Shown here piece by piece: positions 41,802-45,350 of a stretch of 64,000 nucleotides of DNA. Below the pieces are notes generated by a model. It saw nothing but the letters and a program-made list of their open reading frames with translations. It was not told where the DNA came from and did not search any database. The number at the start of each line of letters is the position of its first letter. The stretch's first letter is position 1. Source of the stretch: Clostridia bacterium (GTDB taxonomy: Bacteria; Bacillota; Clostridia; Oscillospirales; Acutalibacteraceae); the NCBI GenBank assembly GCA_017548045.1, contig JAFYNR010000060.1:1-64000 (forward strand). The letters run 5' to 3'. Both the position numbers and the translations under genes were made by a program.

Positions 41802-41822
41802 ACATTTTATTTGCATTTGCAA
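41794..41822 (-). promoter_or_regulatory. Promoter of the YfbR-like gene
   Basis: TTGCAA (41822-41817), 17-bp spacer, TATATT (41799-41794). Its -10 occupies the same bases as the opposing -10, so simultaneous firing is unlikely. Confidence 0.6.
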
Positions 41823-41837
41823 TGCGGAAAGGCAGAT

Positions 41838-42578
41838 ATGCGTAAAATTTCAATGAGAACGTTCATAAGCGAGCTTGATTCACTCTTTGCAAAAGAAGAT
41901 TGGCAGGGAGCGGAAGCCTGCGTCACCGATTGGCTCAGCCTTGCCCGTGAATGGAGCGATAAGCAGGGTGAACTGATTGTCCTCAACGAAATGACAGGCT
42001 TTTACCGTCAGACAAAGAACGAAGAAAAAGGTCTTGCCGCAGTTAATGAAGCCTTCGCTTTGCTTGACAGCTTTGATTTTGACAAAAAAACCGTCGCTAC
42101 GGTTTATCTCAACGGTGCAACAACAATGAAAGCATTCGGCAAAAGTGCCGAAGCAATGGAATTCTACGAAAAATCTCACAATCTTTTTCTTGAAATCCTT
42201 GATAAAAATGACCCTCTCTTTGCAGGATTTTACAACAATAAGGCTCTTGCCTTGCAGGATTTGAAAAGATATTCCGAAGCCGAAGAATATTTTCTCAAAG
42301 CAATAAAAATTACGGAGTCCTGTCCCAAAAACGAGCTTGAAACCGCAATTTCTTTCGTAAACCTCGCCCATCTCTACTATGACATCGACAGCAGTGACGA
42401 AAGAATAAACAATCTTATGGACAAGGCTCTGGATATTCTTGACTGCCCCGATTATTACGGTTACCAAAAATATGCCTTCACCTGCAGGAAATGTGCACCC
42501 TCTTTCGGATTTTTCGGATTTTTCCTTGCAGAAAAAAAGCTTAACGAAAGGGCGGACAAAATCTATGCAGGGAATTGA
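41838..42578 (+). CDS. Tetratricopeptide repeat protein
   Basis: 246 aa, cytosolic and helical. Consecutive TPR-like helical pairs are visible from about 15 to 215, including AVNEAFALLDSFDFDKKTV, AMEFYEKSHNLFLEILDKND and KRYSEAEEYFLKAIKITE. It probably serves as a protein-binding scaffold. ATG 41838 has GGAAAGG upstream. Its 3' end overlaps the DUF4037 gene by 14 bases, implying coupled expression. The C-terminus (GFFGFFLAEKKLNERADKIY) is hydrophobic-amphipathic. Confidence 0.8.
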   Translation: MRKISMRTFISELDSLFAKEDWQGAEACVTDWLSLAREWSDKQGELIVLNEMTGFYRQTKNEEKGLAAVNEAFALLDSFDFDKKTVATVYLNGATTMKAFGKSAEAMEFYEKSHNLFLEILDKNDPLFAGFYNNKALALQDLKRYSEAEEYFLKAIKITESCPKNELETAISFVNLAHLYYDIDSSDERINNLMDKALDILDCPDYYGYQKYAFTCRKCAPSFGFFGFFLAEKKLNERADKIYAGN

Positions 42579-43509
42579 ACTGAGCCGCCGCTACTACGAA
42601 GAATACGGCATACCGATGATAAAAGAGCAATTTGCCGAATTTGAAAACAGAATTGCCGTTGGTCTTGCAGGCCCGGGGTCGGATTGCTTCGGATTTGACG
42701 ACGAAATTTCCCGTGACCACGATTTCGGCGCAGGCTTCTGCCTCTGGCTTACGGATGAAGATAATGAGCTTTTCGGCTTTCAGCTTGCCCGTGCATACGG
42801 CAGGCTTCCGAAAATTTTTATGGACGTTGAAAAAGGCAGAACAAATTCCTACGGCACCGCACGCTACGGTGTCAAATCAATATCCGATTTTTATATGCCG
42901 CTGACGGGCTGCAAGGGTGCGCCCGAAACCCCTTTACAATGGCTTTACGTTCCCGAAAGCTCACTTGCCGCCGCTACAAACGGTTGTGTTTTCAGAGACG
43001 ATCTCGGTAAATTCAGCGAAATACGAAATACGATTTCAAATGGTATGCCCGAGGATATAAAGCTCAAAAAGCTTGCCGCAAGGCTGATTTTTATGGCACA
43101 AAGCGGTCAGTATAATTTTTCACGTTGTATTTCTCACGGCGAAACGGGTGCCGCCGCACTTGCCGCCGCAGAATTCGTAAAAAACACCGCATCCCTCGTA
43201 TATCTCATAAACGGAAAATATGCTCCGTTTTATAAATGGGCATTAAGAGGAATGAAAAATCTTGAAATTTTTTCCGGTTTTTCGGAAAAACTTTCCTGCC
43301 TGCTTACGGGCGGCTTCACTGCCGATGAAATCGCAGTCAAGCAGAGCATAATTGAAAATATCTGCTCACTGACGGCGGATTATATGCGTAATTCGGGTCT
43401 TGCCGAAAGCGGTTCGGATTTTCTTGAACCCCTTGCATATCAGGTGCAGAACAAAATAAGAAATTCCGAAATACGATCATTACACATAATGGAAGGAGGG
43501 TCCCCTTGA
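42565..43509 (+). CDS. DUF4037 nucleotidyltransferase-like protein
   Basis: 314 aa. The N-terminus ELSRRYYEEYGIPMI and AVGLAGPGSDCFGFDDEISRDHDFG are the DUF4037 signature; the GS-x-D-x-D arrangement resembles the active site of minimal nucleotidyltransferases. The remainder is helical. The family is presumed to transfer nucleotides to an unknown substrate or protein; no proven activity known to me. ATG 42565 fits the conserved family start. It overlaps the TPR gene by 14 bases and the sortase gene by four. Confidence 0.82.
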   Translation: MQGIELSRRYYEEYGIPMIKEQFAEFENRIAVGLAGPGSDCFGFDDEISRDHDFGAGFCLWLTDEDNELFGFQLARAYGRLPKIFMDVEKGRTNSYGTARYGVKSISDFYMPLTGCKGAPETPLQWLYVPESSLAAATNGCVFRDDLGKFSEIRNTISNGMPEDIKLKKLAARLIFMAQSGQYNFSRCISHGETGAAALAAAEFVKNTASLVYLINGKYAPFYKWALRGMKNLEIFSGFSEKLSCLLTGGFTADEIAVKQSIIENICSLTADYMRNSGLAESGSDFLEPLAYQVQNKIRNSEIRSLHIMEGGSP

Positions 43510-45350
43510 AACGCTGTATAAACTGCCTTGCCGAGTGCGACGATACCTCAAAGGTATGCACCGAATGCGGCTACAACGGCACTGCGGAAAAATCCGTTGA
43601 ACACGCTTTGCCTCCCGGCACAAGGCTCAATAACCGTTACCTTCTGGGCGGTACGGTTTCAAGGGTCAATTCCTTTATTTGCTATTACGGTCTTGATACC
43701 CACGGCAGATGCAGAGTAAAAATCTACGAATATCTGCCCGCAAAGCTTATGTACCGCCATCCCGACGAGCTTGTAATAAAATATTTTGACGAAAAATGCA
43801 GTGCCAGAGGCGACAAAGAAATTTCCGCTTTTTATTCTCATTTTACCAAGCTTTGTGCCGCCGCAAAAAACACTGTTCTTGATTTCACGGATTGCTTTGC
43901 GGATAACTCAACCATCTATTACGTATGCTCAACCGAAAAAGGAACTCCCCTTTCATCTCTTCTGGGCAACGGCAAAGCAATGAGCTTCGGAAAGGCCGCA
44001 GAAATTATAGCACCCCTTGCCGAATGTGTTGCAGGGCTTGAAAAATCGGGCAAGTGGCACGGCTGTATCTCACCCTATTCAATTATTACCGACGGCAAAA
44101 AAATCACTTCTCTTTCCGGCTATTCCTACCCCCCGAAAAGCATTTCTTCCCCCTTTGACGCCCCCGAAAAACAGCTCGGTGCAAAAAGCTGCGGCTCATT
44201 TACGGATATATATTCTCTGGGCGCCATTCTCTACGAGGCGGTTACAGGCTTTCTTCCTCCTGCGGCGGACAGACGGCAGAACGGCAGACCCCTCAAGCTG
44301 CCCCAGAATCTTTCCGACAGTGAAAAAGCCATAATTGAAAAAGCCCTCGCACTGGATAAAGAGGACCGCTATGCTTCTGCGGAAGAATTCATTGCCGACC
44401 TTAAAGGAAAGCCCAAAAAAGAAAAGCTGCCCAAAAAAGAAATTATAAGACGTACCACTCTTGCGGCTGCATCGGTAACTCTTGTTCTCAGCCTCACTTT
44501 TCTTATCAATTACTTTGTTATTGAACCTCTCAGGGAGAAAAAGCAGGCATCCGACCTCGCGTCAATGGTGCAGACCACTCTCCCCGAAAAAGACCCCTGG
44601 GATGAAATAAAAGCAAAGTATCCCGATATCAATTTCCCTGCAGGTATGAACCCTTCATACGCAGACCTCTATGCTTCCAATCCGGATTTTTCAGGCTGGA
44701 TAAACATAAGCGAAATGAATATCGATTTCCCCGTTGTTCAGGCATCGGATAATCAGTATTATGAACGCCGTGATTTTTACGGCAAAAGCACCAACTACGG
44801 CGCACCCTTCTTCGATTACCGCAACTCCCTTGCATCTCTTGACCGCAACACCATTATCTACGGCCACAATATGCGCCACGACGATAAGCTTTTCGGCACG
44901 CTGGAGCAATACAGAAAAATCGAGGGCTTCGCAAAAGCTCCCCTTATTTCAATGAACACCCTTTTCGGTGAATACAAATTCAAAATATATGCCGTCTTTA
45001 TTTCAAACAGCAAGGCAAGCGATGATAACGGCCACGTTTTCAATTATATTTTCACCGATGCAGGCAACGCAAAATTCCGTGATTACATTTCGGAAATTGA
45101 CAAGCGTAAGCTTTACACCACAGGCGTTGATATTAATGAAAACGATAAAATTCTGACCCTTTCAACCTGCTGCTACGATTTTGAGGATGCAAGGCTCGTT
45201 GTTGTAGGCAGGCTTCTGAGAAGCGGTGAAAGCGAAGCCGTTGACACTTCCCTTGCGGTTATAAACGAAAACCCCAAATTCCCACAGGCTTATTACAGTA
45301 ACAAACGCATTGATAACCCCTATAAAGACGACCCCGATTTGTTCAACTGA
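43506..45350 (+). CDS. Zinc ribbon-pseudokinase-TM-class B sortase fusion
   Basis: 614 aa. Residues 1-25 form a zinc ribbon (C4, C7, C18, C21). Residues about 38-300 are a Ser/Thr-kinase-like domain: NRYLLGG, an EYLP matching the usual EYFP, WHGCISPYSII, then DIYSLGAILYEAVTGFLPP. Catalytic residues are lost: Tyr for the ATP lysine, Cys for the HRD Asp, no DFG. A Lys-rich stretch and one membrane helix (about 316-338) lead to an outer class B sortase domain with H454 (YGHNM), C555 (TLSTC) and R563, an intact triad. TTG start with GGAGGG. A cytosolic sensor controlling an outer transpeptidase is inferred. No LPXTG-type substrate is seen nearby. Confidence 0.88.
   Translation: MKRCINCLAECDDTSKVCTECGYNGTAEKSVEHALPPGTRLNNRYLLGGTVSRVNSFICYYGLDTHGRCRVKIYEYLPAKLMYRHPDELVIKYFDEKCSARGDKEISAFYSHFTKLCAAAKNTVLDFTDCFADNSTIYYVCSTEKGTPLSSLLGNGKAMSFGKAAEIIAPLAECVAGLEKSGKWHGCISPYSIITDGKKITSLSGYSYPPKSISSPFDAPEKQLGAKSCGSFTDIYSLGAILYEAVTGFLPPAADRRQNGRPLKLPQNLSDSEKAIIEKALALDKEDRYASAEEFIADLKGKPKKEKLPKKEIIRRTTLAAASVTLVLSLTFLINYFVIEPLREKKQASDLASMVQTTLPEKDPWDEIKAKYPDINFPAGMNPSYADLYASNPDFSGWINISEMNIDFPVVQASDNQYYERRDFYGKSTNYGAPFFDYRNSLASLDRNTIIYGHNMRHDDKLFGTLEQYRKIEGFAKAPLISMNTLFGEYKFKIYAVFISNSKASDDNGHVFNYIFTDAGNAKFRDYISEIDKRKLYTTGVDINENDKILTLSTCCYDFEDARLVVVGRLLRSGESEAVDTSLAVINENPKFPQAYYSNKRIDNPYKDDPDLFN

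Follow-up and report, generated by a model that had tools for sequence, protein, structure and literature searches.

A class B sortase joined to a zinc ribbon and a kinase-like domain devoid of kinase residues in a genus of Acutalibacteraceae

Introduction

Sortases are usually viewed as enzymes of the cell exterior that a short anchor holds in the membrane. What, then, might a kinase fold without kinase residues contribute when it is joined to one of them? This question is raised by a gene in a 64,000-nucleotide stretch of DNA (hereafter the window; positions 1 to 64,000 of contig JAFYNR010000060.1, assembly GCA_017548045.1) from a Clostridia bacterium of the family Acutalibacteraceae. The gene has a TTG start and an intact frame (43506-45350, forward strand) coding for 614 residues. 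In this analysis we named its product KinSrt, a label for the combination of a zinc ribbon, a pseudokinase, a transmembrane segment and a class B sortase. KinSrt is a class B sortase carrying a new cytosolic module. Among the titles on sortases with kinase domains or phosphorylation, including the available portions of PMC10166564 and PMC8262956, we found no pseudokinase-sortase fusion.

Domain architecture of KinSrt

A preliminary description of the window had placed a zinc ribbon, a pseudokinase, one membrane helix and a class B sortase in a single protein, and the Pfam and NCBIfam searches, a structure model and the alignments agree with it. The predicted zinc ribbon has four Cys residues (C4, C7, C18 and C21), which gave a sub-threshold Pfam match only and are kept in 62-63 of 69 aligned relatives. 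The region that follows gave a Pkinase match below the Pfam cut-off (residues 121-290; 26.4 bits for a cut-off of 31.7). In the model it adopts a two-lobed Ser/Thr kinase fold at residues 32-303, in line with the kinase fold first proposed for residues 38-300. One long helix (residues 310-353) comes next, preceded by a Lys-rich linker that varies in the alignment. The predicted TM-score (pTM) of the model is 0.49, and the placement of the kinase-like domain relative to the sortase is not fixed.

The C-terminal part matches the Pfam Sortase profile (residues 399-570; 6.5e-11). Its best NCBIfam match is the class B sortase family TIGR03064, at 153.6 bits for a curated cut-off of 153.75, and the model predicts a sortase B fold. 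The His-Cys-Arg triad, described earlier as intact, is indeed present in the window protein. H454 is kept in all 67 rows having a residue there, C555, within a TLSTC motif, in 67 of 68, and R563 in 61 of 67; Lys, Ser or Asn replaces this Arg in six rows. These active-site residues suggest that the KinSrt sortase is active.

The frame is one gene. A search retrieved 237 relatives at E ≤ 0.001, and in 117 of the 120 listed the match spans 92% or more of KinSrt. Relatives at 93 to 47% identity have the same domain order, which rules out a chimera or two genes joined by a sequencing error.

Loss of the catalytic residues and selection on the domains

The alignments A1 and A2 comprise 20 and 71 of 136 protein identifiers, respectively. 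The motif census omitted P0127 and P0128, which are other kinases, and included the partial rows P0121 and P0122. No row out of 69 has Lys at position 74 (VAIK Lys) or Asp at position 187 (HRD Asp), and a single one has Asp at position 205 (DFG Asp). All three residues are thus lost in 68 of 69 rows, as the preliminary description had noted for the window protein, and KinSrt does not classify as an active Ser/Thr kinase. All 69 rows retain the APE triplet, a structural element, together with Asp234 and Arg288, and 63 of them have Lys or Arg two positions N-terminal of the lost VAIK Lys. The P0111 group has a degraded activation segment. Judged by its sequence, the kinase-derived domain of KinSrt is devoid of kinase residues.

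The ratio of nonsynonymous to synonymous substitution rates (omega) is given here for the 8 of 55 gene pairs with at least 70% identity. It ranges from 0.04 to 0.15 in the N-lobe (seven defined pairs), from 0.06 to 0.21 in the C-lobe and from 0.02 to 0.10 in the sortase. Although the values are rough, this sequence comparison shows purifying selection on both kinase lobes and on the sortase.

Distribution and natural variants

KinSrt was found in 17 of the 45 genomes of the genus. Eleven of the proteins are full-length, one has no zinc ribbon (G162), one is a fragment at a contig end (G174), and four are short forms devoid of the entire C-lobe and hence of its pocket (G168, G171, G177 and G178). 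The N-lobe is retained even in the shortest forms. The other 28 genomes showed no KinSrt, an uncertain absence as many of the 45 are incomplete. A search for the same domain order in other Clostridia had been suggested. The order does recur within the genus, but a search of 150 genomes from 135 genera of the family matched full-length KinSrt in its own genus only, among the matches listed (to about 1e-47).

A species-level scan with six short peptides as queries, which reaches close relatives only, yielded 17 loci: L001 to L011 are full-length (L011 without the zinc ribbon), L012 to L014 are short, L015 and L016 are other sortases and L017 is a weak kinase match. Loci and genus genomes overlap (L001 is G145, L009 is G161, L011 is G162, L012 is G177, L013 is G168 and L014 is G178) and were not summed. 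The sample records of the loci are mostly from ruminant and deer gut.

Origin of the fusion

In the kinase tree, the KinSrt domains form one clade of 12 rows (support 100/100), whose sister is a group of 10 zinc-ribbon pseudokinases (joint support 100/96). Both nest among zinc-ribbon kinases in which the three catalytic residues are intact (13 of 13 rows), and a constraint that places KinSrt outside lowers the log-likelihood by 11.8 units (p-AU 0.017). The two pseudokinase groups are on long branches, and their pairing was perhaps helped by the model. In the sortase tree, from which rows shorter than 195 residues were omitted and whose bootstrap is not settled, KinSrt and its short forms make up one clade (99/95) beside a long-tailed class B sortase of the genus (joint 99/92). 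These sequence trees show a single origin of KinSrt. Based on the two placements, a duplicated copy of the class B sortase of the genus would likely have exchanged its low-complexity cytosolic tail for that half of a zinc-ribbon PASTA pseudokinase which lies in the cytosol.

The putative sortase parent, encoded genus-wide beside cinA (L062, 2739-4697; 652 residues), is the sister of KinSrt, with 62% identity over the sortase domain, the same helix and the same C-terminal tail. Its cytosolic part, unlike that of KinSrt, is an acidic low-complexity stretch with no kinase fold, and Pfam detects only the Sortase domain. The shared tail has the pattern PQAYY...NPY.

The sister pseudokinase of the same genome (L074, 3611-5380) resembles KinSrt in having a zinc ribbon, a pseudokinase domain and one membrane stretch. 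Its outer part consists of two PASTA domains (Pfam) with no sortase, whereas that of KinSrt is a sortase with no PASTA domain. A search with this protein gave 2563 proteins at E ≤ 0.001, and the 120 listed all carry kinase and PASTA domains. The PASTA assignment comes from Pfam for L074 and from precomputed domains for these 120 relatives, and refers to them rather than to every one of the 10 pseudokinases in the tree. In all 10 rows, the HRD and DFG Asp residues are both replaced by Gly: HRG and GF stand in place of the HRD and DFG motifs in L074 (3611-5380, contig C2 of the same genome), L088-L094, L065 and L068. Zinc-ribbon kinases also occur in tandem pairs at L066, L067 and L098 (G133, G091 and G163), and the pairs of L066 and L067 are near a frame that by eye resembles a PP2C-type phosphatase.

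Comparison with known systems

KinSrt shares its fold and His-Cys-Arg set with the SrtB proteins of Clostridioides difficile, Staphylococcus aureus and Bacillus anthracis. According to the available part of PMC4155245, C. difficile SrtB was studied after removal of a 26-residue N-terminal membrane anchor, in contrast with the approximately 310 predicted cytosolic residues of KinSrt. The motif given there for C. difficile SrtB is (S/P)PXTG; the likely sorting signals found here are IPDTGS and IPSTGS, none of them tied to KinSrt.

Membrane proteins with a non-catalytic cytosolic kinase fold are described in the portions available of two articles. EssB/YukC of type VII secretion is a membrane pseudokinase that serves as a scaffold (PMC12599244). 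In mycobacteria, MviN is a MurJ-pseudokinase protein; once PknB has phosphorylated the pseudokinase, FhaA is recruited and less peptidoglycan is made (PMC12599244, PMC10166564). By analogy KinSrt may belong with these scaffolds, a likeness of description; MviN (a lipid II flippase) and EssB/YukC differ from it in partners and outputs. The bacterial pseudokinase families named in the accessible text of PMC12599244 are ActPs1-3, GLW, CP1, DYD and DLHK, with ActPs3 and GLW from actinobacteria or proteobacteria.

Possible roles of the pseudokinase

With moderate confidence, we propose that the pseudokinase of KinSrt, above all its N-lobe, is a non-catalytic handle for docking or pairing in the cytosol that places or assembles the outer sortase. 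The kinase-derived domain would lie inside the cell and the sortase outside, joined by the one predicted membrane helix. The N-lobe would bind a partner or dimerise, and its docking would place or assemble the sortase on the outer face, which might be of benefit at sites using the lipid-linked wall precursor. A docking or pairing surface is favoured over a ligand switch because four genomes have lost the pocket-bearing C-lobe yet kept the N-lobe, and because omega is lower in the N-lobe in five of seven pairs. It is possible, although doubtful, that the N-lobe is a steering handle free of catalysis that sets the place or assembly of the outer transpeptidase, while the sister PASTA pseudokinase reads the wall precursor for the same machinery. 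If so, KinSrt would be the first sortase steered via a cytosolic pseudokinase, and its natural versions devoid of the C-lobe would show the smallest working piece. With a conserved cytosolic pseudokinase added to a sortase, it becomes testable whether surface anchoring is controlled or placed from within the cell, and nature supplies a ready-made set of deletions (full fold, no zinc ribbon, no C-lobe) that shows which part is worth keeping.

Several observations weigh against a mere handle. The C-lobe is retained in 13 of the 17 genomes (one of them with the contig-cut fragment) and is under selection, and a handle would not need the whole of it. The zinc ribbon has been lost in one lineage (P0115, P0116, P0119 and G162). 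Helix C is shorter in the modelled short form, 14 residues versus 25, so that the N-lobe face normally used for dimerisation may be incomplete there. Lastly, synonymous divergence (dS) mostly exceeds 1, which leaves omega rough; it is below 1 in all six parts only for the pair of the window and L001.

The selection on the C-lobe would suit a switch working from the inside out, as the preliminary description had suggested, in which the pseudokinase, altered by a ligand, by a partner or through its phosphorylation by an active kinase, would turn the sortase outside on or off. MviN is a precedent, and the same genome encodes kinases with the VAIK, HRD and DFG residues (L019, L020). Nevertheless, a ligand-switched kinase fold is hard to fit with the loss of the C-lobe and its pocket in four genomes. 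The halves are joined by a single helix, with no fixed relative placement in the model and a variable, Lys-rich linker ahead of it, and we consider a switch rather unlikely. The same C-lobe losses, together with the loss of the zinc ribbon in one lineage, the degraded activation segment of the P0111 group and the 28 genomes, many incomplete, without KinSrt, are what one might see of a relic in decay, a soluble anchor with no present role carried by a useful sortase. Purifying selection on both lobes and the retention of the N-lobe in the shortest forms make this improbable. Very improbable is a changed enzyme catalysing another reaction: SelO and SidJ are described precedents in the available part of PMC12599244, and the Lys or Arg ahead of the lost Lys might be invoked, but the DFG Asp is lost too and four genomes manage without the C-lobe.

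Neighbouring genes and candidate substrates

Table 1. Features of KinSrt and upstream frames in the window
Feature	Residues	Positions	Strand	Remarks
KinSrt, zinc ribbon-pseudokinase-transmembrane-class B sortase	1-614	43506..45350	+	614 aa
Predicted zinc ribbon, CxxC-x10-CxxC	4-21	43515..43568	+	Cys conservation; sub-threshold Pfam match
Kinase-like N-lobe	35-143	43608..43934	+	glycine loop and VAIK Lys (position 74) lost
Kinase-like C-lobe	144-303	43935..44414	+	HRD Asp (187) and DFG Asp (205) lost; missing in short forms
Single predicted membrane-spanning helix with flanks	310-353	44433..44564	+	model; hydrophobic stretch in sequence
Class B sortase domain	383-574	44652..45227	+	Pfam, NCBIfam, model
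Predicted catalytic His	454	44865..44867	+	conservation
Predicted catalytic Cys	555	45168..45170	+	conservation
Predicted catalytic Arg	563	45192..45194	+	conservation
Conserved C-terminal tail 3' of sortase	575-614	45228..45347	+	alignments
TPR frame		41811..42578	+	accessory, not conserved with KinSrt
DUF4037 frame		42439..43509	+	stop overlaps KinSrt TTG start; accessory, not conserved with KinSrt

The DUF4037 and TPR genes, described at the outset as co-translated with KinSrt, are adjacent to it in the window, but the association is not general. Both are upstream of KinSrt in only 4 of 14 loci (L001, L003, L010 and L011; 4 of 11 full-length and none of three short ones), and they were rejected as general partners. 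In the remaining loci a YfbR-like gene is next to KinSrt. The DUF4037 protein harbours, ahead of its domain, a GSxCxGxxxxxSRDHD stretch reminiscent of nucleotidyltransferases.

A genome search for class B sortase substrates had also been suggested. The srtB_target profile gave no match at E ≤ 1 in the same genome; in a control search it gave sub-cut-off matches in 7 of 14 unrelated genomes. With the anchor profile PF00746 there were nine matches, of which one exceeded the cut-off. Three of the nine end in IP[DS]TGS followed by a hydrophobic stretch and Lys residues, and are likely sorting tails. A profile of these tails matched, in the same genome, the three themselves, a weakly matching frame just beyond the window end (C58:64347; E 8.7e-5) whose PAETGS tail is not a clean motif, and one more at E 0.27. 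It matches 41 of the 45 genus genomes at E ≤ 1e-6, KinSrt-positive and KinSrt-negative alike; none of the tails is tied to KinSrt. The four genomes without a match (G015, G155, G184 and G186) are KinSrt-negative, but the sequences behind the profile come from a genome that has KinSrt. A regular-expression scan for sorting signals in the window and 16 loci picked out five frames, with no convincing secreted protein among them.

Other class B sortases

The Pfam Sortase profile, which misses diverged class B sortases, matched only KinSrt in its genome. The idea that KinSrt is the sole (housekeeping) sortase was dropped because an alignment search recovered two further class B sortases on contig C29, and the genome thus has at least two besides KinSrt. 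One is short and the other long-tailed, and their genes lie in tandem beside cinA (L062:1714-4697). In other genera of the family, CinA and a class B sortase make up single frames (L069:1174-4095, 973 residues; L075:1414-4488, 1024 residues; L070:659-4288, 1209 residues), the last of which also has a SpoIID domain.
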